A DNA stretch of 41,869 bases. Source: a virus. The DNA lies in IMG/VR virus record IMGVR_UViG_3300029813_000324, positions 1 through 41,869 of that record; one strand, written 5' to 3'. A program made the position numbers and the translations under genes. The notes beneath the pieces were generated by a model. That model ran no database searches. It was not told the origin of the DNA and saw only the letters and a program-made list of their open reading frames with translations. Shown piece by piece: positions 2,665 through 26,823 of the stretch. Numbering within the stretch: the stretch's first letter is position 1; each line of letters begins with the position of its first letter.

Positions 2665-2853
2665 TTATTTAATAATATTATATATTTGCTTTTTTCTTTG
2701 TAAATCCAAATTCATTAATTCGAGAAGTAATAAAATTTTATCTTTATCATATTCGGATTTGAATCCGCTGTCGCCGATTAATTCATGAGTCCCATCGGCG
2801 TGGATTTTTTCAATGAAAATTCTGTGGCGTAGTGGAGATATCTGTCTAATCAT
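2665..2853 (-). CDS. Small protein, 62 aa, possible tail-connector gene
   Basis: The start ATG overlaps the stop of the preceding nuclease gene (ATGA), which supports real translation. The first half resembles a short beta hairpin (RHRIFIEKIHADGTHELIGDSGF). The second half is a helix ending LQRKKQIYNIIK. I do not recognise the family. Position after the gp10-like gene suggests a tail-completion or tail-associated role, but nothing in the sequence proves it. Confidence 0.55.
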   Translation of the reverse strand: MIRQISPLRHRIFIEKIHADGTHELIGDSGFKSEYDKDKILLLLELMNLDLQRKKQIYNIIK

Positions 2854-3455
2854 ATTTTCGATATTTCTTCAGGATGTTTAGATATCCATATAAGCCACTT
2901 GCCATTTATGTCGGAATAGTGTTCTATATGATTTAGATTTGAACGATGAATTTCTTTTGGAACCACGATCACAAAAGGTAAATCCTTAGCAACATGATGC
3001 CATTCAAACTCTTCGGAGATATCCTTTGTGATAGGAATAAATCCTTTTTCTCTTCGTTTTGCAGTTTTTTTAGCATCATATTTTTTGATTAAATCTGGAT
3101 GTTGTTTTCTCCAGATTTGAACTTGTTTTATATTGTATCCCTTATGTTCTTGATACCATTTTTTATTATATTCCCTTCGTTCCTTTCGATGATTCTGATA
3201 ATATTTTTTACAATATTCTTTACATTTTTCTGGATGTTTAATATTGAATCTTCTTTTATTCTCTTTTATCTTTTCTGCGTGATTTTTTAGATAAAGAGAA
3301 ATCTGTTCCCTATGAGTTTCATTATAGTTTTTTGCATAACTTTTACACTTTTCTTGATGTTCTTTGTAATACTCTTTCGTATATTTCCTGCCTAACTTTA
3401 ATTTTCTCTTGTATGCCTCTTTGCCATATCGTTTAATAAACTCTTCTTTCTTCAT
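2850..3455 (-). CDS. Repeat-type HNH/His-Me-finger-like nuclease, copy 2
   Basis: The protein has 201 residues. Six to seven basic 15-residue units begin near residue 27 (YYKEHQEKCKSYAKN, YNETHREQISLYLKN and so on), one of them shortened to about 11 residues. The C-terminal core has GFIPITKDI, FEWHHVAKDLPFVIVVPKEIH and a later NLNH. The His pair is intact. The DLPFVI segment is shared with copy 5 (30705-31685), so these two form a subgroup. The gene is inserted between the gp10-like gene and a small tail-region gene, with a 4-base ATGA overlap downstream. The homing or mobile role is inferred from copy number and position. Confidence 0.7.
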   Translation of the reverse strand: MKKEEFIKRYGKEAYKRKLKLGRKYTKEYYKEHQEKCKSYAKNYNETHREQISLYLKNHAEKIKENKRRFNIKHPEKCKEYCKKYYQNHRKERREYNKKWYQEHKGYNIKQVQIWRKQHPDLIKKYDAKKTAKRREKGFIPITKDISEEFEWHHVAKDLPFVIVVPKEIHRSNLNHIEHYSDINGKWLIWISKHPEEISKI

Positions 3456-3457
3456 TT

Positions 3458-3970
3458 TTATTTTTTATATAACGCCTTTTGAATATGTTTCTTAGTTTTA
3501 TAGTGTATTGGTTTTGCACTTCTGATATAAGCCCTTTCAATAAACGTATTTGCTTTATGATATTTAACTCGCCCAACGAGAAACCCGCATTTTATACCTT
3601 TTGGTTGTTTTGGATAGCAAATCTTTAGTGCTTTATGCCCCTTTTCGAAATCGGGATATATCCAGTTTCCTGATTTAGGACATCGATGTACAACATATTT
3701 TAGATGAGGTAATCTGCGTGAATCTAAAATGACATAACCATCATATCTCCCCCTTCTTCTTATACAATTAGTTGATTTTGAGAGATAGTTGTATATCTTA
3801 TTTTCCGACCAACGATTTCCTTTGGACTTACGAGGACTTTCATGCATTAACTGTCTCCTTATTGTTTCTAATGCATCGTTTCGATTTTTTTTCATTTCAA
3901 TTTTTATATCATGAGACAATTTTGAAAGAGTTTTCCCTTGTTTTTTTATACATATACCGAATTTAATCAT
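3458..3970 (-). CDS. HK97 gp10-like tail-completion protein candidate
   Basis: The protein has 170 residues and is very basic. The N-terminal helix (LSHDIKIEMKKNRNDALETI) is followed by a segment with ESPRKSKGNRW, resembling the helix-then-TGxLR arrangement of HK97 gp10 neck proteins. The end TFIERAYIRSAKP matches the usual closing F-x2-A pattern before a final helix. The length fits the family. It lies downstream of the capsid and connector genes, where gp10-type proteins are expected to join head and tail. The start overlaps the stop of the preceding nuclease (ATGA). The assignment rests on pattern and position, so it is moderate. Confidence 0.5.
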   Translation of the reverse strand: MIKFGICIKKQGKTLSKLSHDIKIEMKKNRNDALETIRRQLMHESPRKSKGNRWSENKIYNYLSKSTNCIRRRGRYDGYVILDSRRLPHLKYVVHRCPKSGNWIYPDFEKGHKALKICYPKQPKGIKCGFLVGRVKYHKANTFIERAYIRSAKPIHYKTKKHIQKALYKK

Positions 3971-4644
3971 AAGAAACTATATGCTATTGAATTTATAAGT
4001 TTTATGTTTTTATCTGTTTTAAGATTGTGTGGAACATTCTTATGAATTATACGTGGGGTATAAATCACATCATCATTATTGATGTGATGCGCATCGCATT
4101 CGATTCCTTCGATTGGTTCATTTAATGGAATAAAACCCAAATTGCGTTTTCGTCGATTATAAGTTCGTTTTCTTACTACTTTTCCTTTTTCAGATTGTTG
4201 ATACGATTTTTTGTATTCTAGTAATTCTATTTTATGCACAATATAATATTTTTTCTGAATTTCTTTCAAATGAAAATTGTTTTTTTCTGCATATTCTTTC
4301 TTTTTTACTGCTTGTTCTTTTTTATGAATTCTGTTATAATTTCGACTTTTTTCAATTAATTCGTCACGATGATCAGTTCTATATGTTTTTCCCTTTAAAC
4401 TAATGTTTTCTTTATGATGGAAGTTATATTTTTTGCTGTTTCTAACAAACATATCTCGATTTTGTCTATAATATTCTTTATGCCATTCTCTTCTATCTTC
4501 TATATGCTCATTATAATTTTTATTATGAAGGATTTTTCTCTCTTCTGCAACTTCAATTCTAATATGTCCATTATATTTTATATTCCCACTCCTATCTATG
4601 ATGAGGCGAATATTCCAATAATCTTTTTCTTCGTTTCCGCTCAA
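3967..4644 (-). CDS. Repeat-type HNH/His-Me-finger-like nuclease, copy 3
   Basis: The protein has about 225 residues. An N-terminal segment (DYWNIRLIIDRSGNIKYNGH) precedes roughly eight basic 15-residue repeats and a C-terminal core (GFIPLNEPIEG, DAHHINNDD, TPRIIHKN, VPHN, INSIAYSFL) almost identical to copy 1. The only start in frame is a TTG at 4644 with no clear ribosome site. An ATG about 25 bases upstream, followed by eight A residues, would be in frame if the run had seven. The true N-terminus may therefore be hidden by a homopolymer error or slippage. Its stop overlaps the ATG of the gp10-like gene. Confidence 0.68.
   Translation of the reverse strand: MSGNEEKDYWNIRLIIDRSGNIKYNGHIRIEVAEERKILHNKNYNEHIEDRREWHKEYYRQNRDMFVRNSKKYNFHHKENISLKGKTYRTDHRDELIEKSRNYNRIHKKEQAVKKKEYAEKNNFHLKEIQKKYYIVHKIELLEYKKSYQQSEKGKVVRKRTYNRRKRNLGFIPLNEPIEGIECDAHHINNDDVIYTPRIIHKNVPHNLKTDKNIKLINSIAYSFL
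4075..4143. repeat. Direct repeat copy B, nuclease core (pairs with 567-635)
   Basis: This is the second copy of the 69-base repeat in the same coding position of a paralogous nuclease gene, matching at 68 of 69 bases. Confidence 0.9.
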
Positions 4645-4976: not shown

Positions 4977-5927
4977 CTAAGCTATATAGCGGAGATTGCA
5001 TATTGCATCTTTGAAGAAATGTTTCGCTGACAATCTCATCGAAACCTTAAGGTTCAATAAATCGTTTTTCGGATCGCTGAATTTTTCGAGAGCAACATCC
5101 TGCCTAATCCCCAAACCTCCAGCTTTTTCAGAATCTATAACAATAGCGGTAATATGTCGAGTTGCACCGCCGAATGTCGCATTTTGCGAAGGTTGTGTTA
5201 ATAGATATGGTTTGAGTCCTAGTAGCTTTTTACCTACATCCGCATTTCTAAAATTACCTGTTTCTCCACTATAATCAAATCTAAAATGGGGATCTGCGTA
5301 TAAATCCGATTCCGTACTTGCATCCATTATTAGAATATCTGGTGAAAACCCATCTTTCTTGATTTCAAGAATTGCATCTTTTATACATTTAATAGGCTCA
5401 CTCGAATTATATCTTACATCTGCTCCTGCGTTTTCTACTATTTCATCAATACATAACTGATTGAGCGTGTTCTCTGCTTTCTTACCTACATCTCTTAATC
5501 GCATTTCAACGATATCGAACATAGCATCCGAAATGAGTTCCTCTTCAATAACTGGCAGTTCGCCGTATTTCTTAGCTATAAATGTTACCGCTCTGTAACT
5601 TTCGTTTGCAGCAACTGGATATTCAGCTGTAGGCGCTACTTCAGGTAAAGTACCATTTACATTTTCATGAAGAATTAATCTATAACTTGGTGTTGGCATT
5701 GTGAAGGTTGTACCTTTCAGCACATCTCTCATACATCGTACCTTCTCAGCTCCTTCCATTATCTTTGAGTATACTTCTTCTTTTACCAAAGTGGAAGCAT
5801 TTACAGCAGAAGTTTCAATCAATTCACGCTGTTTCTTTGTCAAATCTAATGTATCGAGTACTGTAGCTTTTACATCTTCAGGTTCACTATCCATTATTTC
5901 AAATAATTTTCCAATATTTCCTGACAT
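4977..5927 (-). CDS. Major capsid protein, HK97 fold
   Basis: The protein has 316 residues, normal for HK97-type capsid proteins without a fused delta domain. The order fits the fold: a helical N-terminal arm (residues 1-60), an E-loop and spine-helix region (RAVTFIAKKYGELPVIEEEL, then LRDVGKKAENTLNQLCID), a mid-region with SPDILIMDASTESDLYADPHF, and a C-terminal P/A-domain strand set (TAIVIDSEKAGGLGIRQDV, SMRLSAKHFFKDAICNL). The start is strongly supported by AAGGAGGAAT upstream. Neighbours are the cement protein and the scaffold-like gene upstream, exactly as in tailed viruses. An inverted repeat follows the stop. Confidence 0.88.
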   Translation of the reverse strand: MSGNIGKLFEIMDSEPEDVKATVLDTLDLTKKQRELIETSAVNASTLVKEEVYSKIMEGAEKVRCMRDVLKGTTFTMPTPSYRLILHENVNGTLPEVAPTAEYPVAANESYRAVTFIAKKYGELPVIEEELISDAMFDIVEMRLRDVGKKAENTLNQLCIDEIVENAGADVRYNSSEPIKCIKDAILEIKKDGFSPDILIMDASTESDLYADPHFRFDYSGETGNFRNADVGKKLLGLKPYLLTQPSQNATFGGATRHITAIVIDSEKAGGLGIRQDVALEKFSDPKNDLLNLKVSMRLSAKHFFKDAICNLRYIA

Positions 5928-5957: not shown

Positions 5958-6371
5958 CTAAGGTATTGCATGTGATTCGTTAGGAACATTCATTAATCTT
6001 ATCAATGGAGCAGTAGTCGTTGAACCAGCAGTTAAAGCTCTGCCTATAATTATGAAAGGTGCATTGGATGTCAAAGTTGTATCACGATTTTGAACCTTTG
6101 CTCCGTCGGGAACTACATAGCCTCCTGCAGTAATATTATGAGTTGCATTTACGTATACTTCACTCGGTTCTACTGCTATAGACAAATATGCATCCGCAGC
6201 AACACTATCCATTGCAACTCCTTCAAATGCTAATCCACTACAACTTGCATTTGCTGTTTTGGTTACTGTTTCATCAGCACTCAAATAGACTAAATCCCCT
6301 GCAGTGATCGCCGCTCCAGCTTTTCGTGAAGTCGACATATAATTTCTTTTTACAATATCTGTTAATACCAT
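5958..6371 (-). CDS. Capsid cement/decoration protein, DUF2190-like
   Basis: The protein has 137 residues. It shows the DUF2190 pattern of small head-decoration proteins: AGAAITAGDLVYLSADETVT near the start, then GLAFEGVAMDSVAADAYLSI, a GGYVVPDGAKV turn and a closing FIIIGRALTAGSTT segment. Such proteins bind the outside of HK97 capsids and stabilise them. The ATG at 6371 has AAGGAG at a good distance. The gene lies directly upstream of the capsid gene and downstream of the scaffold, matching the usual order. Confidence 0.75.
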   Translation of the reverse strand: MVLTDIVKRNYMSTSRKAGAAITAGDLVYLSADETVTKTANASCSGLAFEGVAMDSVAADAYLSIAVEPSEVYVNATHNITAGGYVVPDGAKVQNRDTTLTSNAPFIIIGRALTAGSTTTAPLIRLMNVPNESHAIP

Positions 6372-6399: not shown

Positions 6400-7062
6400 T
6401 TATTTCTTTTGAGTGATTGTACCATCCTTCATAAGTGTATAAGGCGATACATACTCTTTATTTTTATCTCCATCAATTGATTTTTCTATCAAATCAACTG
6501 GAGTATCTTTAATTATCTGAATTTCCTTTCCAAGTTCTTCAAATGTTTTAGAAATATCATCAAATTTCTGTGCATATGAATCGAGAATTGCTTTTGATTT
6601 TTCGAATTCCTCATTCAATCCTTTGATTTGTGACTTTTCAGGATATGGTTCTTGACTAGGAGCCAATTCCTTCGGCAGTGGATATTTACCCTCAGATACG
6701 CCCTTCAGCCATAATTTGAGTTGTTCTCTAACAATACGAATCACACCTGCTTCGTTTAATCCTTCAGCTTTTTCAGTTGCCTCTTCTTCTTTTTCTTTCT
6801 CAAACAATTCTGGGAAAGTTTCTTTCCATGATTCTTCACTCCAAGGATCATTTTCTAATTCGATTTTTTTTGTAACTTCCTCTTTCTCATCAGTTGTTAC
6901 GAGATCTGATTTCGAATCGATTATTGGTTCTATTTTTGTTTCTGTTTCTGCTTCTTTCTTAATTTCTTTATCTCCTTCTTCAGTTGTATCTTCTTTTACT
7001 GCTTCAATTTTTTCTTTTTCTTTAATGCCATCTTCTGTTTCGATTTTCTCTTTTTCTACCAT
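6400..7062 (-). CDS. Acidic scaffold-like protein
   Basis: The protein has 220 residues and is extremely rich in Glu and Lys with no cysteine; long charged stretches are predicted coiled coil or disordered. This composition and its place immediately upstream of the cement and capsid genes are typical of prohead scaffold proteins, which fill the prohead and are degraded by the viral protease. An in-frame ATG at 7083 exists, but the start at 7062 is chosen because AAAGGAG lies 8 bases before it. There is no catalytic motif. Confidence 0.65.
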   Translation of the reverse strand: MVEKEKIETEDGIKEKEKIEAVKEDTTEEGDKEIKKEAETETKIEPIIDSKSDLVTTDEKEEVTKKIELENDPWSEESWKETFPELFEKEKEEEATEKAEGLNEAGVIRIVREQLKLWLKGVSEGKYPLPKELAPSQEPYPEKSQIKGLNEEFEKSKAILDSYAQKFDDISKTFEELGKEIQIIKDTPVDLIEKSIDGDKNKEYVSPYTLMKDGTITQKK

Positions 7063-7120
7063 ACTACTTACTCCTTTTTTCATATTAGTATTCTTAAAAA
7101 TATCATTAAAATAATCATTT

Positions 7121-7375
7121 TTATTTTGAAAGTGAAATTTCTACGTTGCTTACATGGCGTTCTTTTTTATTTTCGTCTACATAACTTGAATCGTAGATTG
7201 ATACTGCTTTAACATTGTAGCCATAATCTCTTTGTACGATTAAACCGATATCGACTGCTTTTTTGAGATTAGAACCTCTAGCTAATAGAACCACATCTGA
7301 ATTACGTAGAACTGCATATACATAACTACTGATATCTTTTTGTCCGATTTTTACTTCATTCACTTCATCTGTCAT
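7121..7375 (-). CDS. Alba-family DNA/RNA-binding protein
   Basis: The protein has 84 residues covering a whole Alba domain. It shows VKIGQKDISSYVYAVLR (usual form IGxKPxxxYVxAV), VVLLARGSNLKKAVDI (the basic loop and helix; ARGxxIxxAVD in cellular Alba), then NVKAVSIYDSSYVDE and a closing strand VSNVEISLSK. Alba is a dimeric archaeal chromatin or RNA-binding protein also found in some archaeal viruses and essentially absent from bacterial phages, so this gene is the best host marker in the window. It sits between the scaffold and a coiled-coil gene inside the head operon. It may condense or protect viral DNA, or act on host chromatin. Confidence 0.85.
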   Translation of the reverse strand: MTDEVNEVKIGQKDISSYVYAVLRNSDVVLLARGSNLKKAVDIGLIVQRDYGYNVKAVSIYDSSYVDENKKERHVSNVEISLSK

Positions 7376-7814: not shown

Positions 7815-8423
7815 TTATTGCTTTGACCATTTTTCATAGAAGATTTCAATTGGATTACGATTTTGGTCTATGAATTTTGATGTTAGATGTTCAACTTTAA
7901 TATGACAAGATTTGCATAAGGTAATTAGATTATCAGGATGGTTATCTATTTTGATATGTCTTGGCATTATATGATGAACTTCAATCGAACGTTTCTTTCC
8001 ACAATATTGACAGATATATTTATCGCGTTTGCGAATCTTTATAGCATATTCTTTCCACTCTATCATCGTCATATTAAAACATTCTTCATATGATTTCCCA
8101 GAAATTCCACCTTTCCAATTCGGATGTAGTTCTCCTTTATGCATTTTACTCATCTTTTCTTTTGTATATTTGGTATGATGCTTCCCAGCCATTGGCTGGA
8201 TTTTTCGCAATTTTCTACTTTTACTCATTCGTAAACGAGTTTTCTTTGATGGGTATTTTTCTTTCTTTACGCACGAAGAACACAAATCATGATAACCATG
8301 TTTCGAGATTATTCTAATATTTCCACATTCGTTACAAAATACTAATATTTTCTTTTCAGAGCATGGTTTTAAATCCTTCGGATAGTATCCAAACCATCTA
8401 TATGTTCCTTGCTCTATAATCAT
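7815..8423 (-). CDS. HNH homing endonuclease with NUMOD3 motif
   Basis: The protein has 202 residues. The N-terminal segment (residues 8-51) has WFGYYPKDLKP and two cysteine pairs, C30-x2-C33 and C48-x2-C51, likely a small zinc finger. A NUMOD3-type DNA-binding motif follows (MSKMHKGELHPNWKGG, residues 91-106). The HNH domain has C138-x2-C141, HHI at 150-152, N165 and LCKSCH ending at residue 174, so catalytic and zinc residues are complete. Free-standing HNH genes of this type are mobile and target phage genes. It overlaps the start of the upstream protease fusion gene by 4 bases and is the intact relative of the relic at 2022-2232. Confidence 0.88.
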   Translation of the reverse strand: MIIEQGTYRWFGYYPKDLKPCSEKKILVFCNECGNIRIISKHGYHDLCSSCVKKEKYPSKKTRLRMSKSRKLRKIQPMAGKHHTKYTKEKMSKMHKGELHPNWKGGISGKSYEECFNMTMIEWKEYAIKIRKRDKYICQYCGKKRSIEVHHIMPRHIKIDNHPDNLITLCKSCHIKVEHLTSKFIDQNRNPIEIFYEKWSKQ

Positions 8424-9394
8424 TTCTTCTCCTTTGATAAGATTTCTAATGTTGTATTTTTATTAGCAGGGTTTGGTGTGAGACTTGTTTCGAGATAATA
8501 AGTACCACCCAATATTTCAGTTACACATTGATTTTCTTCATCACAAATTGTTTTAATATTCTTTTTTGGATCTTTTATTCCAAACTTTATGGAGAAGCTT
8601 TTCAGTTCACCAGATACAATTGTTTTAATTATCTTTTGTGCTATTGGCATATCATTTCTCAACTTAAATATTAAATATAATTTTGAGTTATCTATTAATG
8701 CACACCGATATTTTTTATAATCCATAATCAGAGAACCTATACAAGTTGAATTGTGACTATCAAACAATCCACGGAATTCTTGGGGGGTTTTCTTTATACT
8801 CTCCCATATCTGTTTCAAGGCTTTCGGTGTTATACGTTCTTGTTCCAAATCTTCGGATGTATCACTTACGATTCCTCCAATAATAAAATCTTTGCTTTTA
8901 CTCAACACTTCGAATTTCTCATCATCATTTTCTTCATCCAAACTCATCTTACGAATCGCTCTTTCATCATCTTTAGTCGGAACAATCGAAAAATTATACA
9001 TACTTACAAAATCAGTAAACGAACCACCTGCTCCACTATATGATATATGTAAATATTCTGAAACCAAATCATATTCTATATTAAAGTAATCAGCAAATGC
9101 ACGATATAATCTAAAATTCAAACTTTCTTTTATCTCCTCACTAAAATCATCACCACGAATTACAATATCAACATCATTGCCTTTTCCTCTGATAACTGTT
9201 CCACCAACCAAAAATACCATATCTCTGAGATGTGCAGGTTTATTAAAACATTCCAGAACATCTTCTAATCTAAATTCCATACCAGTTTTATGATTAGCAG
9301 ATGGAACAGAAAGTAAATCTTCATCTGAATTTAAATCGTATTCGTTTTCACCTTTTTCCGAAAGTTCTTTGATTTTATCTATTTGCATATTCAT
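8420..9394 (-). CDS. Nucleotidyltransferase domain fused to XkdF-like prohead protease
   Basis: The protein has 324 residues. Residues about 55-135 form a polymerase-beta-type nucleotidyltransferase: FLVGGTVIRGKGNDVDIVI gives the GG...RG...DxD signature (D74, D76), and a third acidic strand EYDLV (D109) fits the catalytic triad. Residues about 168-320 resemble XkdF/U35 prohead proteases: an IIGGIVSDTSEDLEQERIT strand set, His214 in DSHNS, Ser268 in LKSFSIKFG, and the closing ETSLTPNPANKNTTLEI that matches the family's E-x-S-L-x3-PAN end. The H-to-S spacing is 54 residues. Upstream of Alba and scaffold, it is well placed to process the prohead. A second protease candidate lies at 30259-30705. 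Confidence 0.7.
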   Translation of the reverse strand: MNMQIDKIKELSEKGENEYDLNSDEDLLSVPSANHKTGMEFRLEDVLECFNKPAHLRDMVFLVGGTVIRGKGNDVDIVIRGDDFSEEIKESLNFRLYRAFADYFNIEYDLVSEYLHISYSGAGGSFTDFVSMYNFSIVPTKDDERAIRKMSLDEENDDEKFEVLSKSKDFIIGGIVSDTSEDLEQERITPKALKQIWESIKKTPQEFRGLFDSHNSTCIGSLIMDYKKYRCALIDNSKLYLIFKLRNDMPIAQKIIKTIVSGELKSFSIKFGIKDPKKNIKTICDEENQCVTEILGGTYYLETSLTPNPANKNTTLEILSKEKK

Positions 9395-10121
9395 TAAAAA
9401 TCTTAGAATCTATAATATTATAATATTCCAAATTTAAAAAATCCCGCATTGCTAATCTGATATTTTCTCGATGAGTATTAGCTTTACTATTATTATATTT
9501 TCTATGTAACCATCTTGGAATTTCTATTACATTTTCATTATCGATGTGATGAAAATCAATAGAAGATAATATTTTATAATCTCTAAACGTTCCAATTAAA
9601 TGAAAGCCAAAATTTCGTCTCCTTCTTGCTTCAACTTTTGATTTAATCCCTTTTCCGCGTTTGATTTTTGAATATATCTTTTGTTTTACGCTGATAGTTT
9701 CTTTATTTGCTTTGTAATATTTCTTTTTTTCTTCTGATATTTGTTTAAAATTTGCCTTTCGATACACTTTTCTTTGTTTTGCGATTGTTTCTTTGTTTTT
9801 TAAATAATATTCTTTATCCGTTTCTTTCTTTCTTTCCGAATTGACTCTCGTCCATTTTCGTGTTTTCTCTCGATATTCATCTGCATGTTGTACATGATAA
9901 TTTTTATCATATATTCTTTTTTCTTCTTTATGTCCAATTCGATATTGTTCTTTTTGTTTTTCAGAATTTTTATAATATATACTTGAAGCAGATTTCAATC
10001 TCCATTGTTGTACCCCGTTTTTAGCGAAACCATTCTTAGCATAATCATGATTCGATAAATCTATATTCGTAGTAATATGAATTTGAGATTTTTTAATTGA
10101 TTCAAAAATCTTTTCTTTCAT
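9375..10121 (-). CDS. Repeat-type HNH/His-Me-finger-like nuclease, copy 4
   Basis: The protein has 248 residues. An N-terminal segment (NHDYAKNGFAKNGVQQWRLK) resembles NYDYARCGTSSEGTIRWILK in copy 5 and is probably a shared DNA-binding module. About seven basic 15-residue repeats follow (YRIGHKEEKRIYDKN and so on). The C-terminal core is FGFHLIG, IDFHHIDNENVIEIPRWLH and KYNNS, with the His pair intact. The start overlaps the stop of the upstream gene (TAATG) and the end overlaps the protease fusion gene. It is the most diverged member of the set at the core. Confidence 0.68.
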   Translation of the reverse strand: MKEKIFESIKKSQIHITTNIDLSNHDYAKNGFAKNGVQQWRLKSASSIYYKNSEKQKEQYRIGHKEEKRIYDKNYHVQHADEYREKTRKWTRVNSERKKETDKEYYLKNKETIAKQRKVYRKANFKQISEEKKKYYKANKETISVKQKIYSKIKRGKGIKSKVEARRRRNFGFHLIGTFRDYKILSSIDFHHIDNENVIEIPRWLHRKYNNSKANTHRENIRLAMRDFLNLEYYNIIDSKIFNEYANR

Positions 10122-11524: not shown

Positions 11525-11818
11525 TTAAAGATTCAAATCAGTAACGTTGATAGATTTATCGTCTATCCAAACATCATAAAATAATTTACCAATTTTTAAT
11601 TCGTGATATAAAACTTTCCATTCTGCCAATTGCTTTTCTGTTACTCTTCTCCAATTTATTCCACTTGTAGTTCCACGTGCAGTGTATATTATGATTGTAT
11701 GATTAGCTAAATACAAATCATTAACATAGCCTATAACATCCCAGTTTGGTTTAGCATCTTCGTAATTAGCATTATCTGTAAATGTGATTGTGTTATCTAA
11801 ATCAATAACATATATCAT
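11525..11818 (-). CDS. Small HAD-superfamily phosphatase
   Basis: The protein has 97 residues. Motif I is VIDLDNTI with nucleophile D6 and acid D8. Motif II is IIIYTARG. The acidic motif IV is DVWIDDKSI near the end. No cap domain is present, so it is a minimal HAD enzyme of the kind found in polysaccharide clusters, where such phosphatases remove phosphate from sugar phosphates. It is the last gene of the glycan island, starting 2 bases after the stop of the SDR gene. A plausible substrate is a heptose phosphate or nonulosonate phosphate made by the neighbouring enzymes; that is inference. Confidence 0.7.
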   Translation of the reverse strand: MIYVIDLDNTITFTDNANYEDAKPNWDVIGYVNDLYLANHTIIIYTARGTTSGINWRRVTEKQLAEWKVLYHELKIGKLFYDVWIDDKSINVTDLNL

Positions 11819-11820
11819 GA

Positions 11821-12654
11821 TTACCAGCTAGTCTTTCCACCATCTATAATTAAATTTGCACCTGTCATATACGAAGAAGCATCTGAACAAAGAAATACGA
11901 TAGCACCTTTGTATTCATCTACTATAGCCATTCGATTCATCGGAATCAAATTACTTAATTTCTTAACAAATTCTTCTGGTTGATTAGTATAAATTCCCGC
12001 AGGTGATAACGAATTAACGCGAATCCCTTTATCAGCCCAATAAACCGCAAGATATTTTGTCAATCCAATTAAACCGAATTTGGAAACAGAATAAGTAACT
12101 GGTTTAACTTGTTGTTTTTCTTCAGGGATATTTTCTTTTCTATAAACCCGTTGATCTGGTGCGATAACACCCAAATCAGATGCAATGTTCAATATAACAC
12201 CGTTCTTTCTTTTTGTCATTTCCGTTCCTATGATTTGACTACATAAGAATGCACCTGTCAAATTAACGGACAAATCATTATCCCAAGTTTCAAGTGAAAG
12301 TTCTTCAAATCTATCCCAAGTTCCTTCGTTTTCATTTTTCTCTATTTTGGGATTATGCGCTGCATTATTAATTAAAATATCAACTGTGCCATATGTGTCA
12401 ACTACTATTTCTAATAATTTCTTGATATCCGATATTTTAGTCACATCCGTTTCAATTCCAATCGAATCTATATCATAATCTTCACTAATCGATTGAGCTG
12501 CTTTTTCAGCTTTTTCCCCATGGATATCCGCTAATATAGGAATGGATCCTGCTTCTGCAAGAGCTCTTGCGTGTTGTATGCCTAACAATCCTGCACCACC
12601 TGTAATCAAACTAGTTCTTCCAGTCATATCAAATAAATCTTTTATATTGTTCAT
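11821..12654 (-). CDS. Short-chain dehydrogenase/reductase of glycan cluster (PtmA-like)
   Basis: The protein has 277 residues, a full-length classical SDR. The NAD(P)-binding TGGAGLLG is at residues 18-25, NNAA at 96-99, catalytic S159, and YSVSK gives Y188 and K192. The C-terminus closes with SYMTGANLIIDGGKTSW. This subgroup is common in flagellin and surface-sugar clusters next to NeuA- and NeuB-type genes (PtmA in Campylobacter), where its exact step is still poorly defined. The start overlaps the stop of the oxidoreductase gene (ATGA), so expression is coupled. Confidence 0.8.
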   Translation of the reverse strand: MNNIKDLFDMTGRTSLITGGAGLLGIQHARALAEAGSIPILADIHGEKAEKAAQSISEDYDIDSIGIETDVTKISDIKKLLEIVVDTYGTVDILINNAAHNPKIEKNENEGTWDRFEELSLETWDNDLSVNLTGAFLCSQIIGTEMTKRKNGVILNIASDLGVIAPDQRVYRKENIPEEKQQVKPVTYSVSKFGLIGLTKYLAVYWADKGIRVNSLSPAGIYTNQPEEFVKKLSNLIPMNRMAIVDEYKGAIVFLCSDASSYMTGANLIIDGGKTSW

Positions 12655-13691
12655 AATGTTACAAGTTCTTCCTTTTCTAATGATTCTTTTATAGCTAAAG
12701 CAATTTTTAGACTTTTAATTCCTTCTTCGATTGATACCATAGGTTTCATACGATTTGTGACACAATCGAAAAAATGGTCAATTTCATCTAGAAATATAGA
12801 ATTACGTTTAAGATAACCGAAATCGTATGTAAAACGATTAGCATCAACTTTTTCTACGATTACTTTCGAATTTACCAAGTCCATAGTTATTTTTCCCTTC
12901 TCTCCTATAACTTTACAATGTCGAGAAGAAGGATTTTGAATATAATCCATGTGTAATTGAATAGGTATCTTCGTTCCTTTGTATTTCACATCCATTAAAA
13001 CATCCGCTATATCTTCGACATCAATATCCAAATTACTCAAATGACCACCAAATGCCATTAACTTGTGTGGCATACCAAAAAGACTATAGAGATAATCAAT
13101 CTCATGAATTTGAGCTAAAACTACTCCACCACCAAGTTTTTCTTTAGATGCATATAAATGACGATAATCCTCATATTTATGAAATCCGGGTAAATAATCC
13201 CCTACTTCCGAATAAACTGAAAGAATGTTCCCGATACTTTCTGCTTCAATTAATTTTTGAAGCATTCGATAGCAAAGATGAAATCGCAATTGAAATCCAA
13301 CCATTCCTATTGTCTTATTTCTTTTGCATGTCGAAATCAATTCTTTTGCTCCTTTCATAGTATTAGAAAGAGGTTTTTCAATAAATAAATCACATCCTTT
13401 TTCTGCTATTCTTTGTGATACAGGAATATGTAAACTAGTTGGATTGCATACGAAAGCAACATCAGGAGATTCGGATAAAGCTTTATCTAAATTTCTATAT
13501 ACTTTAATAGAATAATCTTTAAGAAAATTAGTAGTTTTATCAATTGTTAAGTCAGTAGTAATCGTATCTTTTGAATTTCTTACTCGATACGCAATTACAT
13601 CTACTTCTTTACCAAACTTCTTATGAATGTTTCTAAGATGTCGTTGACCTATGCCACCTAATCCGATTATTAAGATTTTTAGTTTCTTCAT
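12651..13691 (-). CDS. Gfo/Idh/MocA-family sugar oxidoreductase
   Basis: The protein has 346 residues, the normal family length. The N-terminal Rossmann fold carries GLGGIGQRH (residues 10-18). The family signature FIEKPLS places the conserved EKP. The C-terminal domain includes GGGVVLAQIHEIDYLYSLFG with a likely active-site His. These enzymes oxidise or reduce sugar or nucleotide-sugar hydroxyls with NAD(P). Relatives occur in nonulosonic-acid and flagellar-glycan islands. Translation is coupled to both neighbours by 4-base overlaps. Confidence 0.82.
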   Translation of the reverse strand: MKKLKILIIGLGGIGQRHLRNIHKKFGKEVDVIAYRVRNSKDTITTDLTIDKTTNFLKDYSIKVYRNLDKALSESPDVAFVCNPTSLHIPVSQRIAEKGCDLFIEKPLSNTMKGAKELISTCKRNKTIGMVGFQLRFHLCYRMLQKLIEAESIGNILSVYSEVGDYLPGFHKYEDYRHLYASKEKLGGGVVLAQIHEIDYLYSLFGMPHKLMAFGGHLSNLDIDVEDIADVLMDVKYKGTKIPIQLHMDYIQNPSSRHCKVIGEKGKITMDLVNSKVIVEKVDANRFTYDFGYLKRNSIFLDEIDHFFDCVTNRMKPMVSIEEGIKSLKIALAIKESLEKEELVTL

Positions 13692-14506
13692 TTCAAATAG
13701 TTCTTTACGAATTTTAGATTCTTTTTAGCTAATTCCACTTCATTCCCTTTTCGTGCTGTTTGTAAAACAAATGGGCCTTTATAATTCACATTTTGTAATC
13801 CACGAAAACATTTAATAAAATCCGTATCACCTTCTCCCAATGGAACTGTTCCATCATTCAATAATCTGTCTTTGATATGAACAGTTGCTATTTTATTTCC
13901 ATAGATTTCCAATTCTTCCGAAGGACGAAAACCTCGTGAAGCACTATTGCCCATATCATAATTGATTTTTGCATTTTTGTGATGTGTTTGCATGAGGAAA
14001 TTATTGACTGAATATGGTGATAAGGATGTTTCGAAAGACAACGTTATATTTTCTTGATGAACATATCCCATTATAGGTCGAAATATTTCTATTATTTCAT
14101 CGAATTCTTTTTCATTTAGAATGGCAGAGTTGTCTTCCAAAGGAATTTCTAAATATTTAATACCTAAAATCGATAAATGATGAATTAATTCTTCGAGTAC
14201 ATCTAATCGAGTATCTAGTTCTTCACGAGAACATCGAACGAAAGGTTTTTCCATAAAGCAATCTGCACATACAATTTCAACACCAATGCCTGTTTTTTTA
14301 ATTATATCCTTTATTCGTGTGTATCCCTTTGATGTTATTAACGGATTATTATAAAAATTATCCGATTTGATTATCCAATCAATAAAGTCTAAACCCACTT
14401 CCTTTGCTTTATAGAATTCTTCCTCCCATGTACTCCAAGGGAATTTTTGAATTTCGTTATCGATTGGAAGAGATAATCTACCTTGCATAATTCCTATTTT
14501 GTTCAT
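13688..14506 (-). CDS. Sugar-phosphate isomerase/epimerase-like TIM barrel, copy 1
   Basis: The protein has 272 residues with the xylose-isomerase-like TIM-barrel pattern: MNKIGIMQGRLS start, LEIPLEDNSAI, SFETSLSP (E159), YDMGNSA (D184), ATVHIKDR (H210) and GEGDTDF. The fourth metal position, residue 249, is Gln (FVLQTAR), whereas its tandem paralogue has Glu there. Such enzymes epimerise or isomerise sugars using a divalent metal. It overlaps the oxidoreductase gene, and the pair with 14509-15333 arose by tandem duplication. The substrate is unknown. Confidence 0.75.
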   Translation of the reverse strand: MNKIGIMQGRLSLPIDNEIQKFPWSTWEEEFYKAKEVGLDFIDWIIKSDNFYNNPLITSKGYTRIKDIIKKTGIGVEIVCADCFMEKPFVRCSREELDTRLDVLEELIHHLSILGIKYLEIPLEDNSAILNEKEFDEIIEIFRPIMGYVHQENITLSFETSLSPYSVNNFLMQTHHKNAKINYDMGNSASRGFRPSEELEIYGNKIATVHIKDRLLNDGTVPLGEGDTDFIKCFRGLQNVNYKGPFVLQTARKGNEVELAKKNLKFVKNYLK

Positions 14507-14508
14507 GT

Positions 14509-15333
14509 TTATTGCATCCTTAAAAAATGTCTTATTAATGCTATATCATTTTTTATTGTTTTTTTGTTATAACGATTTTGTTTGCTTTCGATAATATATG
14601 AACCGCTATATCCTATTTCTTTAAATAACTTAAAACATAAAGAAAAATCTGTATCACCTTGACCTAAGAAGATAGATTGGCCATTTAAAACTCTATCTTT
14701 TATATGTATCATTATTATATCTTTTCCATACGAATCTAATTCGTCTATTGGATTGTATCCAATAGCAGCACTATTTCCAGTATCATAAACGATTTTAGCT
14801 GCAGGATGATTTAGCTTCGATAGAAAGAGATTAGTTTCAATTGGTGATAAGGAAGTTTCAAAAGCAAAACTAATTTTATATTGATAAGCATAATCTAATT
14901 TTGATTTAAAAATATTTATTATCTTTTCTAATTCTTTCTTATTTCTAATAGCAGAATTATCTAAAAACGGTATCTCTAAACATCGAATATTCAAATCATA
15001 TGCATTTTCAATTAGCATATCTAAGATATACAAACGCTCTTTTAATTCGCTACTAGAACATCTTAAAAATGGATGATTAATGAAATACTGAGCACAAAGA
15101 CTATCAATTTGAATTTTAGTTTCGGATACTATATTCTGTATTTCTTTTATGCCTTCTTTGCTAAGTATAGGATTTTGATATATACTATCTTCCATCATTA
15201 CCCAATCAATCGAATCTAATTCTAATTCTTTTGCTCTGAAAAATTCTTCTTTCCACGTAGATGATGGAAAAATTGGAGATTCGACATCGAAATGAGGTGA
15301 TAATCTACCTAGCATTATACCTATTTTATTCAT
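14509..15333 (-). CDS. Sugar-phosphate isomerase/epimerase-like TIM barrel, copy 2
   Basis: The protein has 274 residues and aligns with the downstream copy almost without gaps (MNKIGIMLGRLS, LEIPFLDNSAI, FETSLSP, YDTGNSA, IHIKDR, GQGDTDF). Metal-ligand candidates are E159, D184, H210 and E249, so the full set is present, unlike copy 1, which has Gln at 249. It starts within the last bases of the aminotransferase gene. Two diverged copies side by side suggest successive epimerisation steps or different substrates. Confidence 0.75.
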   Translation of the reverse strand: MNKIGIMLGRLSPHFDVESPIFPSSTWKEEFFRAKELELDSIDWVMMEDSIYQNPILSKEGIKEIQNIVSETKIQIDSLCAQYFINHPFLRCSSSELKERLYILDMLIENAYDLNIRCLEIPFLDNSAIRNKKELEKIINIFKSKLDYAYQYKISFAFETSLSPIETNLFLSKLNHPAAKIVYDTGNSAAIGYNPIDELDSYGKDIIMIHIKDRVLNGQSIFLGQGDTDFSLCFKLFKEIGYSGSYIIESKQNRYNKKTIKNDIALIRHFLRMQ

Positions 15334-16483
15334 CTTGTATGGTTTCTTTTAGAATAGCAATATATTTTCTTGCTTCTTTTAAGTTCCGATAATTTGTTTT
15401 GAATTTCATTAGTTTTGGTTGTAATTCCTCTGCAATAGGACAGCTTCCTTCATACTTTTTATAGTAACCAAGACTATTCATAATTGGTTCTCTATAAATC
15501 AGATTAATGCCTGCGTAAAAATCATCGCCATTCTTCTTTAAATGATTATCATAGAATTTTTCCCATTCTTTTATTTCAAATGGAGATTTCACCGCATACG
15601 TATAGTAAGAAGAAACATAATGTGAAGGAACTTTTTGGGGAATGAAATTGCTATCATCGAATATTTCATCATACAATTTAGCTATTGCCTTTCGTTTTTC
15701 GACTAATGAATCTACCCTTTCGAATTGAGCTAATGCAACGGCAGAACAAAATTCGGGAAGTCTATAATTTAATCCTAAAGCATCATATCGTTTATACATC
15801 GGATGTTGAAATAGAGTTGGTGTAGTAGTAGACATATCATTTCCATTACTTTTTAGTTTTCTATATCCCAACCCAGCAAATTTTCTAGCCTTGATTGCTA
15901 ACTTTTTATCATCTGTGATTATCATTCCACCTTCACCTGATGATATGTGTTTAGTTCTTTCAAATGAAAATATGGTTATATCTGCATCCTTTCCAACTTG
16001 GCGATTTTTATACATAGCCCCCATTGCTTGAGCATCATCTTCGATAACCATCAAATTATTATCTTCTGCTATTTCCTTGATAGATTCTATGTCATAGGGT
16101 AAGCCATGAAGAGATATAGGAATAATGGCTTTTGTTTTCTTTGTTATTCTTTCTTTAACGCTTTCGGGGTTTATGTTATGGGTATCATAAGAAATATCTG
16201 CAAATACTACTTTCGCATTAACCATAATCGGCATTGAAGCATCAACTATCACAGTAAGTGGAGAAGTAATTACTTCATCCCCATTCTTAATATCAGCTGC
16301 TATCAAAGCAGTATGTAAACCAGAAGTTCCAGAATTTACAGCTATCGCATATCCGATACCATAAAACTTTTGAAATGCTTTTTCTAATCTAAGAGTAAAG
16401 GGATTTGATTTAGTACTAGGTTCATTTCTTAGAACTTCTTCAAGATATCTTAATTCGTTTCCAGAAGCCCATTTTGTATCCAT
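15326..16483 (-). CDS. DegT/DnrJ/EryC1-family PLP sugar aminotransferase
   Basis: The protein has 385 residues, normal length. It shows the N-terminal NSGTSGLHTAL phosphate-binding region, TSPLTVIVDA, the EDDAQAMGA cofactor-contact motif and the Schiff-base lysine in FERTKHISSGEGG (Lys178). The C-terminal half has ALGLNYRLPEFCSAVALAQ, also typical. It transfers an amino group to a keto sugar, usually a nucleotide-linked one. The start at 16483 is chosen over a TTG two codons earlier because GGAG is then 9 bases away. With NeuB and NeuA just upstream it fits an amino-nonulosonate pathway. Confidence 0.85.
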   Translation of the reverse strand: MDTKWASGNELRYLEEVLRNEPSTKSNPFTLRLEKAFQKFYGIGYAIAVNSGTSGLHTALIAADIKNGDEVITSPLTVIVDASMPIMVNAKVVFADISYDTHNINPESVKERITKKTKAIIPISLHGLPYDIESIKEIAEDNNLMVIEDDAQAMGAMYKNRQVGKDADITIFSFERTKHISSGEGGMIITDDKKLAIKARKFAGLGYRKLKSNGNDMSTTTPTLFQHPMYKRYDALGLNYRLPEFCSAVALAQFERVDSLVEKRKAIAKLYDEIFDDSNFIPQKVPSHYVSSYYTYAVKSPFEIKEWEKFYDNHLKKNGDDFYAGINLIYREPIMNSLGYYKKYEGSCPIAEELQPKLMKFKTNYRNLKEARKYIAILKETIQDE

Positions 16484-16511
16484 TAGCAATTTCTCCTTTT
16501 TTGAATGGTAT

Positions 16512-17159
16512 CTAATCTGTTAATGCTTCTAATGTTTTAAAATCCCTTTCATCGTCTATATCAATACAAGGATGGGGAATGATATAATAACCAATTTTGT
16601 CGGATATTCTACATTTTGACTTCTGAAATGCAGTACGAGTTGTTATCCACATTCCACTTTCGATATAGATTCCTTCAAAATCCTGTGATCGGATTCTTGA
16701 AAGAGGATTGTAATTCAATGGTTTAGCATATCTCTGATTTATGTTCCATAGAAAATCTTTTCGGATTTCTAATCCTACATAACTATCACAATCAGAATTT
16801 AAAAAACTATCAATCATATTGTTTATATCATTCGTTGATATTTGAGGACGAGTGGCTTCGAGAATCATCAATATATCACAATCTACATTGTTTAAAAAAT
16901 GTTCGATTGCTTCTTCTGTAGCTGAATAATCAGTTGCTAATTCGGAGGGTCTATCTAAAACGTTAGCACCATATTTTTGAGATATGTTCTTGATTTCCTT
17001 ACTATCAGTACTCACCCAAACTTCATCGACTTTTGATTTTAAAGATGATTCGATAGGATGAGCAATAAGTGGTTTCCCCTTTAGTAATTTTATATTCTTT
17101 TTTGGAATCCGCTTACTTCCTCCTCGAGCTGGAATTAAGAGCGTGATTTTTGGTTGCAT
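16512..17159 (-). CDS. neuA: CMP-sialic/nonulosonic acid synthetase-like cytidylyltransferase
   Basis: The protein has 215 residues, typical of NeuA-type enzymes without extra domains. The nucleotide-binding signature is LLIPARGGSKRIPKKN at the N-terminus, followed by KPLIAHPI, VWVSTDSKEI and ILEATRPQ. The end carries HPCIDIDDERDF, the conserved metal-site aspartates. The enzyme activates a nonulosonic acid with CTP for transfer. The start overlaps the NeuB stop (TAATG), so the synthase and activation steps are made together. A homologue acting on another ulosonic acid cannot be excluded. Confidence 0.85.
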   Translation of the reverse strand: MQPKITLLIPARGGSKRIPKKNIKLLKGKPLIAHPIESSLKSKVDEVWVSTDSKEIKNISQKYGANVLDRPSELATDYSATEEAIEHFLNNVDCDILMILEATRPQISTNDINNMIDSFLNSDCDSYVGLEIRKDFLWNINQRYAKPLNYNPLSRIRSQDFEGIYIESGMWITTRTAFQKSKCRISDKIGYYIIPHPCIDIDDERDFKTLEALTD

Positions 17160-17995
17160 TACAATGTTTCAACTTTTCGAAGTTTCTTTTTCATTTCAAT
17201 TTCTTTCGAATATATTTTTTTAATGCCATCACCCATTGCAACTTCTACTCCTCTAATATATTTAACAAGGCGATGCATACCATCGAGTTCAACTGATGCA
17301 GCTTGATCAGGGCCATATCCTGCTCTATCTAATGTGATATGTCTTTCTACTGATGTCGCACCTAATGCTACTGCAGCAACACTAACTATCAATCCTACTT
17401 CATGACCACTATATCCAACATCGCATTTAAATTTTTCACGCAATACAGAAATCATTTTTAGATTTGCATCTTTGACATTCATTGGATACGATGAATTGCA
17501 ATGCATGAGTTCAAAAGGACAATTTGCATCTTTAAATATTTGAACTGCCTTTTCTATTTCATCCATTGTACTCATACCTGTTGAAATGAATGTATATCTC
17601 CCTTCTCTTGCTACCATTTCCAAGAATTCTCGATGTGTTAGCATTGCAGAAGCAATTTTATTATAAACTAAATCATAATTTTGTAGGAATTTCTGACTTT
17701 TCAAATCCCATGCAGATGCGAACCAAAAAATTTTCTTTTCTTGGCAATATCTATCTATTTCATCGTAATCTTCCTTATCGAATTCTAATCCGTACTTCTG
17801 ATCTCGATAGGTTTTTCCCCACGGACTATCACGTAGATTAGCTAATTCCTCTTGTGAATAAACTAATTCGATAGAACGTTTCTGAAATTTTACTGCATCG
17901 CATCCAGCAACAACAGCTCCATCGATTAGTTTCTTAGCAATATCTAATGAACCATTTGCATTAATTCCGATTTCAGCAATTATAAAACATGACAT
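17159..17995 (-). CDS. neuB: NeuB-type N-acetylneuraminate/nonulosonate synthase lacking the SAF domain
   Basis: The protein has 278 residues. The TIM-barrel synthase domain is complete: IAEIGINANGSLDIAKKLI, DAVKFQKR, YNKIASAMLTHREFLE, FISTGMSTMDEI, ELMHCNSSYPM, VGYSGHEVG and VERHITLDR. It condenses a hexosamine-type sugar with phosphoenolpyruvate. The antifreeze-like SAF domain of about 60 residues found in classic NeuB is absent; the protein ends MKKKLRKVETL. The end is clean, and shorter SAF-less relatives are known, so this is probably a subfamily trait rather than truncation. The start has AAGGAG at 9 bases. Confidence 0.85.
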   Translation of the reverse strand: MSCFIIAEIGINANGSLDIAKKLIDGAVVAGCDAVKFQKRSIELVYSQEELANLRDSPWGKTYRDQKYGLEFDKEDYDEIDRYCQEKKIFWFASAWDLKSQKFLQNYDLVYNKIASAMLTHREFLEMVAREGRYTFISTGMSTMDEIEKAVQIFKDANCPFELMHCNSSYPMNVKDANLKMISVLREKFKCDVGYSGHEVGLIVSVAAVALGATSVERHITLDRAGYGPDQAASVELDGMHRLVKYIRGVEVAMGDGIKKIYSKEIEMKKKLRKVETL

Positions 17996-18017
17996 GATAT
18001 CATTCTCCTTTTTGCAT

Positions 18018-18614
18018 TTATATGTATGAAGCCATTCTTAATTCGACAAGATAACATATTATATGTCCTATCATAATATGAGCTTCCTGTATATGAGGTG
18101 TTTCTTCGGATGGAACAATTAATAAAAAATCGACATTTCCATCCGATTTGACTTTTCCACCCGATTTACCAGCAAGAGCAATAGTAATTGCTCCTAAATC
18201 TCTACTTTTTCTAAAACCTCTAACTACATTTGATGAATTTCCACCTGTTGTAATTCCTATGACTACATCTCCTTCTTTGATTAATGCTTCCATTTGTCTT
18301 TCAAAAACAAATTCGAAGCCATAATCATTCGAAATCGCAGTTAATTCAGAAGTATTTGTTGTTAATGCAATTGATGCATATGCTTTTCGTTCTTGATAGA
18401 ATTTTCCAACCATTTCACAAGCAAGATGCTGGGCATCAGCGGCACTCCCACCATTGCCAAACCATATCACTTTATTTCCTTTCTTCAACGCTTCAGTAAT
18501 TGCATGTACTATTGAATAAATAAGCTCTATTTCAGTTTCAAGAATTTTTTCTTTCACCGCTATAGATTTTTTAATGTATTGTGAAATAAGAATATCATTA
18601 GTGGACTCTTTCAT
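18018..18614 (-). CDS. SIS-domain sugar isomerase, GmhA-like
   Basis: The protein has 198 residues, the usual GmhA length. The SIS domain has VIWFGNGGSAADAQHLACE, TTNTSELTAISND, VVIGITTGGNSSNVVRGF and the closing HIQEAHIMIGHIICYLVE helix. GmhA converts sedoheptulose 7-phosphate to heptose 7-phosphate. Here it lies directly after a transaldolase-like gene, which could supply a ketose phosphate, and before NeuB. The start overlaps the transaldolase stop (TAATG) with AAGGAG in front. Another keto-aldo isomerisation is possible. Confidence 0.8.
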   Translation of the reverse strand: MKESTNDILISQYIKKSIAVKEKILETEIELIYSIVHAITEALKKGNKVIWFGNGGSAADAQHLACEMVGKFYQERKAYASIALTTNTSELTAISNDYGFEFVFERQMEALIKEGDVVIGITTGGNSSNVVRGFRKSRDLGAITIALAGKSGGKVKSDGNVDFLLIVPSEETPHIQEAHIMIGHIICYLVELRMASYI

Positions 18615-19345
18615 TATTTAATCTCCTTTTCTTCTTTTTCGAATGTCTTCTGATAATCTCTTCGCATAGCAGATAATCTTTCTGCGTCTGTAATAAACTG
18701 ATTAACTGTTAAACTACTATATGGATGTTTTATCATCCCGCTAAGTAAATCAGGCGAAACTGTTACAATATCAGCTCCTGCTTCGAGCCACTCAACAATA
18801 TTTAATACTTCTCTGCAAGAACCAACTATGATTTTAGATTTGAATCCTTTTTTATCTATAATTGTTCGTGCTTTTTTAATCTCTTCGCAACAGTTATAAC
18901 CCATGTTATTAATTCGACCACCAAAAATAGAAACATAACTTGCCCCTGCAAGTGCAGCTAAAATACACTGTTGCGCGTTCATCATAGCAGTTACATTTAT
19001 TTTTATATTATGTTCACATTCCAGTTCATGAATTACTTCGAGATTTAATGTTTCGCCATTTGGCCCATGTATAGGTATCTTAACATTAATATTACTACTC
19101 CACCCACCAAACATTATAGCTTGAGAAATCATTTCATCTTTTTTATTACTCGTTACTTCGACAGAGAGCGGATATGGTGATATCAAATCTGCAATTTCAA
19201 CAATTTCTATTTTAAGAGAAGTATGCTTTATCGAAGAAGCATCTTTCAGTAAAATAGAAGGATTCGTAGTTACTCCACGAATTATTCCCATTCTATGATA
19301 TTTTTCAATTTCTTCGGATTTACTTGAATCTAAAAAGATTGCCAT
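18614..19345 (-). CDS. Transaldolase / fructose-6-phosphate aldolase-like protein
   Basis: The protein has 243 residues. It matches the small transaldolase family: MAIFLDSS start, IIRGVTTNPSILLK, LSVEVTSN, NVKIPIHGPNGE (with the likely Schiff-base Lys), INVTAMMNAQQCILAALAGA and YVSIFGGRINNMGYN. It moves or cleaves three-carbon ketol units. AAAGGAGG lies 16 bases before the ATG, unusually far. Pairing with a GmhA-like isomerase suggests production of a seven-carbon or other non-standard sugar phosphate as precursor; that is inference from context. Confidence 0.78.
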   Translation of the reverse strand: MAIFLDSSKSEEIEKYHRMGIIRGVTTNPSILLKDASSIKHTSLKIEIVEIADLISPYPLSVEVTSNKKDEMISQAIMFGGWSSNINVKIPIHGPNGETLNLEVIHELECEHNIKINVTAMMNAQQCILAALAGASYVSIFGGRINNMGYNCCEEIKKARTIIDKKGFKSKIIVGSCREVLNIVEWLEAGADIVTVSPDLLSGMIKHPYSSLTVNQFITDAERLSAMRRDYQKTFEKEEKEIK

Positions 19346-19407
19346 ATTAGTTTTTTAGAAACCTCCTTTGATTTGTTAGAATTAGATTCGAATTATAAAA
19401 TTAATGT

Positions 19408-20784
19408 TTATATGGGATGACATACGAATAACCAACGATCAATCATTTCTTTTTCTGTAGTAAATCCCGCTTTTTCCAATTCAGTTATCCACTCATCTCT
19501 TGTAATAAGCCATTCCCATTGGCCTTCCTCTCGTTTTTTAGCCCAACCAAGATGAATAAAATGTGCAGGTATAGTGCACAAAAACAATCCATCATTTTTT
19601 ATGATTCTACGAGATTCTGAAAAATCTATTTTTCTATGATGTTCGTTACTACCGCAAGACAAAACAATATCAAATGATTGATTTTTGAAAGAAGTCTTTC
19701 TCATATCTTGATTTAAAAATTCAATATTAGGATTTTTTTGTTTCGCTATTTTTAAAGCTTCTTTTGAAAAATCAACACCCTTCATTTTTAATCCCAAATC
19801 CTTTAGAATGCTTAAAGTTCTACCTCCGCCACAACCCAAATCTACAAGATTTAAAGTATTATACTCGGAGTATCGATTTTTGATTATTTTTTTAATATGA
19901 GCATCCAATTCCTGTTCTTCCTCCCAACCATCAGTTTCTATGAATAATTTATCGTACCATTCTGGTGAGCATTCCCCTTCTAAAGGAGCTACGGTGACTT
20001 CGAATTTATAAGTATCACGATAAAAAGAATGCGTTGTTTCCAAATTGATAGGATTGAATGCTCGAATTTTTCCAGATTCTATTTCTGGTCTTTCAAATTC
20101 ATACATCATTCTAGTAATCGGTATCGAAGCTTCTTTTGGTTTATGCGGAAGAGAATATGCCATCATATGTCTATCAAAAAAGACAGGATATCCCGCTCTT
20201 AACACCCGATGTAAAAAATTAATATCATCGAATCCCCATCCAATATCATATCTTTCATCGTAACCATTCAGATTATGTGCTAAGCTAATAGGGTAAATTC
20301 CAAATGAAAATGTGAATTGAAGATGATCAACTTTGATATATCTAGATGGCTCTTGAGGATTATAATAATCATTCCATTTTTGATGATTTAATTCTCCCCA
20401 CAATTTTTGTCCTATGACAGCAAAATTTTCATTTCCTACTGCATCAGTAAACGATTCGATATCATTTCGTATCACATCGAAAAAATCAGGTTTGAATTCT
20501 AATTTATCATCTGCTCTTACTATCCATTTATTTTCTGATAGAAGTAATGCAGTATTCAGTCCTTGGGAGAAATCTCGATAATATTTATGTGGTAATGGTT
20601 TTACAGGAGAATAAACTATTTTTTCAAATCCCGATTGTTCATTTAACCACGCTCTTGTTTCTTCGTTATACCCGCTATCGACAATTATTAATTCAGTATT
20701 TTTATCAGTAACTTTAAAAAGTGGCTTTAACGAATTTATATTTCTTTTAGTAGTTAAAATTAAAGAAAGTTTTGTTTTAGTCAT
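19408..20784 (-). CDS. Family-2-like glycosyltransferase fused to SAM methyltransferase
   Basis: The protein has 458 residues. The N-terminal half (to about residue 260) is a GT-A fold glycosyltransferase: LSLILTTKRN, ELIIVDSG, the metal-binding RADDKLEF and a later GWGFDDINFLHRVLRAGY acceptor motif. The C-terminal half (about 300-455) is a class I methyltransferase with NLVDLGCGGGRTLSIL, MKGVDFSKEAL and FDIVLSCGS. The fusion would add and methylate a sugar. The ATG at 20784 follows one base after the upstream stop and is chosen over a TTG at 20811. A poorly spaced gap of 62 bases separates it from the next gene. Confidence 0.8.
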   Translation of the reverse strand: MTKTKLSLILTTKRNINSLKPLFKVTDKNTELIIVDSGYNEETRAWLNEQSGFEKIVYSPVKPLPHKYYRDFSQGLNTALLLSENKWIVRADDKLEFKPDFFDVIRNDIESFTDAVGNENFAVIGQKLWGELNHQKWNDYYNPQEPSRYIKVDHLQFTFSFGIYPISLAHNLNGYDERYDIGWGFDDINFLHRVLRAGYPVFFDRHMMAYSLPHKPKEASIPITRMMYEFERPEIESGKIRAFNPINLETTHSFYRDTYKFEVTVAPLEGECSPEWYDKLFIETDGWEEEQELDAHIKKIIKNRYSEYNTLNLVDLGCGGGRTLSILKDLGLKMKGVDFSKEALKIAKQKNPNIEFLNQDMRKTSFKNQSFDIVLSCGSNEHHRKIDFSESRRIIKNDGLFLCTIPAHFIHLGWAKKREEGQWEWLITRDEWITELEKAGFTTEKEMIDRWLFVCHPI

Positions 20785-20785
20785 T

Positions 20786-22182: not shown

Positions 22183-22183
22183 C

Positions 22184-26700: not shown

Positions 26701-26823
26701 CTACCATTCATCTTTATCAAGTTTGATAGTTGTAGTATAATAATAAGGTGACCATCCGCAATTACTACACGAACCATCAGTTAGCAAATCTCTACTTCCA
26801 CACTTAGGACACATATCTATCAT
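26701..26823 (-). CDS. Tiny zinc-ribbon protein, 40 aa
   Basis: The ATG overlaps the stop of the intein gene by one base and has GGAGG 7 bases upstream, a strong site. The sequence has C5-x2-C8 (MCPKCGS) and C19-x2-C22 (CSNCGW), a complete rubredoxin-like zinc ribbon, then a short strand YYYTTTIKL. Such mini-ribbons are common in archaeal viruses and may bind nucleic acid or partner proteins. Confidence 0.6.
   Translation of the reverse strand: MIDMCPKCGSRDLLTDGSCSNCGWSPYYYTTTIKLDKDEW

Follow-up and report, generated by a model that had tools for sequence, protein, structure and literature searches.

In polyvalent proteins, assemblin-like peptidases are always C-terminal, with a probable role in virion assembly, and Pol-beta nucleotidyltransferase (NTase) domains were found in the same survey only in polyvalent proteins of conjugative elements (Iyer et al. 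2017, PMC5512222). PHROG families pair the XkdF protease with a DNA methyltransferase or an RNA ligase. In ANMV-1, the protein annotated as 'ATP-dependent DNA ligase' (AJP62006, from KP703175) joins NTase, ligase and phosphoesterase-like regions without a protease; its gene adjoins the portal gene, and the prohead protease annotated in that record is a separate protein. Our literature searches found no paper on an NTase-protease fusion like the one analyzed here, and none describing a virus with a pair of prohead proteases.

An NTase joined to an S78-type prohead protease

We analyzed a 41,869-nt stretch of viral DNA (IMG/VR record IMGVR_UViG_3300029813_000324; hereafter the window). Its minus strand contains an uninterrupted 324-aa ORF, P0004 (8423–9394), in which an N-terminal NTase is followed by a C-terminal prohead protease. 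The same NTase-S78 fusion was found in 18 other viral contigs, 15 of them at approximately 40% identity overall and 3 closer, so that chance is excluded. The presence of both domains in one polypeptide, claimed in an earlier note on this DNA, is therefore borne out by the single ORF and by its conservation across the lineage. An enzyme of DNA or nucleotide chemistry is thus seen placed on a head-maturation protease, in a conserved form, over many viral contigs.

The protease domain covers residues 150–324 (8423–8947, minus strand), with H214, S268 and the C-terminal sequence ETSLTPNPAN. The whole fusion protein matched Peptidase_S78 (PF04586) at 27.0 bits (E = 5.7e-6), above the curated cut-off of 21 bits, and the protease half alone at 29.3 bits (E = 1.1e-6); the relatives L030, L028 and L071 likewise exceeded this cut-off. 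The NCBIfam model of the HK97 proheadase (TIGR01543) matched the protease half at 2.5e-4, which is under its equivalog cut-off. H214 and S268, the two residues singled out previously, both lie in conserved motifs that align across the relatives, and the C-terminal PAN motif is common to them. Based on profile and motifs, the domain is assigned by its sequence to S78. The earlier note had called it XkdF-like, but PF14550 (XkdF) did not match the window protein at E-values up to 1 or the protease half at E-values up to 10, and hhalign gave only a distant resemblance between XkdF and the window S78 (E = 3e-4, probability 41). Neither the NTase half nor the protease half found a relevant chain in profile searches of the PDB, and the AlphaFold model had a pLDDT below 50 over most of residues 150–324. 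The protein resembles S78/HK97 prohead proteases also in its position in the head module, ahead of a scaffold-like protein and the major capsid protein (MCP), and differs from them in its N-terminal NTase and in the second protease of the same virus.

The relatives were recovered in two ways. A DNA pattern derived from the shared VGG...G...D[IV]D motif, searched in viral contigs, gave two groups: 12 contigs whose translated ORFs were mostly large, and 15 contigs with a window-type ORF of 302–321 aa. The 3 closer relatives came from a scan of viral contigs with the protease half, and every one of the 18 contigs recovered with this bait also encodes the NTase half. Single-protein scans of viral contigs with the fusion or the terminase as query, and a scan with a two-sequence NTase alignment, recovered no relatives. 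In genome contigs, the same NTase pattern gave 13 stretches, of which only 3 resemble this NTase family (2 on a Myxococcales MAG contig and 1 on an Aenigmatarchaeota MAG contig); the translations of the others were unlike it.

The long ORFs of the first group combine the NTase with varying sets of DNA ligase, a LigD-phosphoesterase-like region and D12 methylase. In 5 distinct proteins, a related NTase is joined to a true XkdF protease at the C-terminal end, and the stretch between them usually contains DNA ligase, Dam methylase and LigD-phosphoesterase-like domains; the shortest of them, L007, has XkdF without ligase. XkdF polyproteins such as L009 and L014 thus share with the window protein a homologous NTase upstream of a C-terminal prohead protease. 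They differ in that the protease is XkdF (PF14550) and not S78, in being far longer, in carrying ligase and other domains, and in mostly keeping the third NTase carboxylate. Polyvalent proteins (PMC5512222) are likewise viral proteins of several domains, predicted to be packaged, in which an assemblin-like peptidase forms the C terminus; the window architecture has two domains. Given the NTase-XkdF polyproteins, the PHROG XkdF fusions and the polyvalent proteins, the earlier note's statement that linking nucleotide transfer to head maturation has no obvious precedent is not supported. The fusion is not unique; it represents, in conserved and compact form, a broader and so far scarcely described arrangement that couples viral DNA enzymes to the protease of head maturation. 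The window protein is best explained as a compact, partly split form of a viral module consisting of NTase, ATP-DNA ligase, LigD-phosphoesterase-like domain and protease. Membership of this wider module suggests that the NTase works in the chemistry of DNA ends or of nucleotides.

The two halves of the window protein show different affinities. Identity to L030 is 57% in the NTase and 31% in the protease, and identity to L071 is 42% and 63%, respectively. L071 is the closer relative for Alba, cement, MCP and the protease half, and L030 for the NTase half. For a domain swap, tree support was 88/98 and the AU test gave p = 0.18 (not significant), so that a swap between NTase and protease is suggestive only.

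The second prohead protease and the head module

The window encodes a second prohead protease, P0005 (148 aa; 30259–30705, minus strand), with H62 and S110. Its AlphaFold model (pTM 0.70) had as top PDB match the T4 capsid assembly protease gp21 (5JBL; probability 1.00, E = 5.6e-4), and its fold matches in BFVD were mostly prohead proteases; P0005 is thus predicted to have an assemblin-like fold. Sequence identity with gp21, which has no NTase, is only about 10%. P0005 matched no Pfam, PHROG or NCBIfam profile, a profile search of the PDB gave unrelated chains only, and hhalign of the S78 family against the P0005 family gave nothing, although the fold search had matched prohead proteases. The separate H62/S110 protease of the earlier note is thereby supported by predicted fold. 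Its placement after the portal is also correct, except that in the window a 326-aa HNH-like ORF (30705–31685) separates the two genes. Six other NTase-S78 contigs extend as far as the portal, and in all of them the second protease follows it directly, as it does in each of the 13 contigs found by a P0005 family search. The earlier note considered two proteases in one virus unusual, and our literature search found no description of such a pair; the pair is conserved across the lineage.

In a sister clade, a second HK97-fold MCP-like protein of about 280–294 aa is encoded directly after the second protease (L054:1153-2034, L056:5282-6121, L080:2128-3009 and L081:2714-3586; loci L084–L094). Sister-clade contigs reaching this region therefore have two protease/MCP pairs per virus. 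The second MCP is absent from the window clade, in which an unrelated gene follows the second protease and the sole recognized MCP lies in the NTase-S78/Alba/scaffold module. With two prohead proteases per virus, and in the sister clade also two HK97 capsid proteins, these viruses depart from the usual picture of one protease and one capsid protein.

The remaining head genes of the window are also on the minus strand. They encode an Alba-family protein (7121–7375; PF01918, 3.7e-6; NCBIfam AlbA, 2.1e-11, below cut-off), an acidic scaffold-like protein (6400–7083), a cement/decoration protein (5958–6371; PF09956, 5e-6) and an HK97-fold MCP (4977–5927; PF05065, 1.1e-5; phrog_1650, 1.5e-9). The scaffold-like assignment is suggested by position and composition; homologues occupy the same place in the relatives, and the protein had no Pfam or confident PHROG match. 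The Alba-family gene is built into the head module, directly after the NTase-S78 gene in the relatives. Further along the same strand are the portal (31689–32720; PF04860, 4.4e-13) and the large terminase (33255–34748; phrog_2, 1.1e-20).

A gene at 26823–29006 (minus strand) encodes an intein-containing LigD-phosphoesterase-like protein with H150 and H179-x-D-x-R. Its extein is related to the C-terminal part, the phosphoesterase-like region, of the ANMV-1 NTase-ligase protein (BLASTP, E = 9e-5), and its homologues in the relatives lie between the second protease and the NTase-S78 gene. Where covered, the gene order in the relatives is TerS, TerL, portal, second protease, ligase (shown in G003 and G017), phosphoesterase-like gene, variable island, NTase-S78, Alba, scaffold-like, cement and MCP. 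The window has no recognized ligase. Alba in the window, together with ERCC4 and Rad51-like genes in G003, suggests an archaeal host, and these viruses are probably archaeal tailed viruses.

The NTase half and possible roles of the fusion protein

The NTase domain covers residues 36–143 (8966–9289, minus strand). In BLASTP, residues 24–137 matched the homologous N-terminal NTase of the ANMV-1 protein (E = 6e-9), and the match to PF01909 was sub-threshold (12.2 bits against 21). The AlphaFold model of the fusion is of low confidence (overall pLDDT 43; about 67–83 over residues 61–120), and its best Foldseek match was the MNT antitoxin 8xeh_E (probability 0.98, marginal E = 0.019). The VG and DxD motifs are invariant in the family, the window having G64 G65 and D74-x-D76; residues invariant in the aligned family are V63, G64, G70, D74, D76, R80, R95 and R98. 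The earlier note had regarded all three carboxylates (D74, D76 and D109) as intact. This stands for D74 and D76. D109, conserved throughout the short clade, lies in an insert confined to that clade, and the homologous column holds N134, so that, by homology, the catalytic triad is incomplete. In this third-carboxylate column, 9 of 10 long polyprotein relatives have Asp, the window protein has Asn, the 15 short forms have His and the 3 closer relatives have Arg; Asp is thus absent from all 19 short-form proteins, which makes NTase catalysis doubtful. By alignment, the window protein lacks the third carboxylate that marks an active NTase family, and the N-terminal domain, probably a minimal Pol-beta/MNT-type NTase, may have lost or rebuilt its third metal ligand. 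Among pairs with computable dS, dN/dS was 0.012–0.071 for the NTase half and 0.010–0.043 for the protease half. These values reflect strong purifying selection on both halves, so that the NTase half is functional in some sense.

We consider that the fusion protein is an S78/HK97-type prohead maturation protease acting inside the head and tethering a polyvalent-type minimal NTase as cargo, with a probability of roughly 0.55. As the window protein fits the polyvalent pattern, its protease would be active inside the procapsid and bring the NTase along. The fusion protein would join the procapsid core together with the scaffold, and the S78 domain would process the scaffold and/or the capsid protein as well as the fusion protein itself. 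The NTase, brought into the head as a passenger, might then stay with the packaged DNA or enter the next cell. Encapsidation, autoprocessing and any NTase catalysis are steps that we infer. The ligase and phosphoesterase-like genes near the fusion in G003 and G017 favor this reading; against it, P0005 may be the real maturation enzyme. The DxD motif, Ser268 and Ser110 provide defined constructs for asking whether viruses load enzymes into heads in this way.

The strongest alternative, though a clearly less probable one, is that the NTase is a pseudo-enzyme that transfers nothing and serves as a structural or nucleic-acid-binding adaptor, positioning the protease in the core by contacts with, for example, scaffold, Alba-coated DNA or nucleotides. 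The N, H or R of the 19 short forms, against Asp in 9 of the 10 long ones, favors this alternative, as does the replacement of G65 by Ser in L071 and L072. Yet the eight invariant residues, including both Asp of the DxD motif, have been kept, the NTase half is under strong purifying selection, and D109 could substitute as a ligand.

It is somewhat less probable that P0005 is the capsid maturation enzyme and NTase-S78 a separate effector whose protease processes only itself. P0005 occupies the usual place after the portal, and the sister-clade contigs reaching the region have their second HK97 MCP directly behind it. In the window clade, however, the only recognized MCP belongs to the NTase-S78 module, and what follows the second protease is unrelated. 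A broader idea, as tentative as the last, is that the NTase and the neighboring ligase and phosphoesterase-like genes constitute a LigD-like DNA-end repair kit, loaded into the head through the protease tether and released later, and that the sister-clade head consists of two paralogous protease/capsid-protein modules.

An active MNT-type AMPylator or NMP-transferase, modifying a viral or host protein and merely freed by the protease, appears improbable. The best Foldseek matches were MNT NTases, including AMPylating HEPN-MNT complexes, and the DxD motif is intact; but the E-values of these matches, 0.019 and above, are marginal, the window domain lacks the third carboxylate, and the genes beside the fusion included no identified HEPN partner. 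An assembly or frame artefact, for which we found no supporting point, is refuted by the same single ORF in 18 other contigs.

Several other features of the locus were noted. The run of head genes is broken by free-standing HNH or HNH-like ORFs on both sides of the fusion gene (7815–8423 and 9375–10121), as it is between portal and second protease, and others occur at 459–1208, 2850–3455 and 3967–4644; for the 248-aa ORF flanking the fusion, an HNH origin could not be shown. Inteins or Hint domains are found in the phosphoesterase-like region of the window gene, of L037:10386-13472 and of L008:1800-6923, and their splice points appear to differ. Between the two groups of head genes, the window carries a sugar-modification island (11525–25165) with glycosyltransferases, epimerases, NeuA/NeuB-like and radical SAM genes, and glycosyltransferase and radical SAM genes are present at the corresponding island of a relative (L031:7239-11598).
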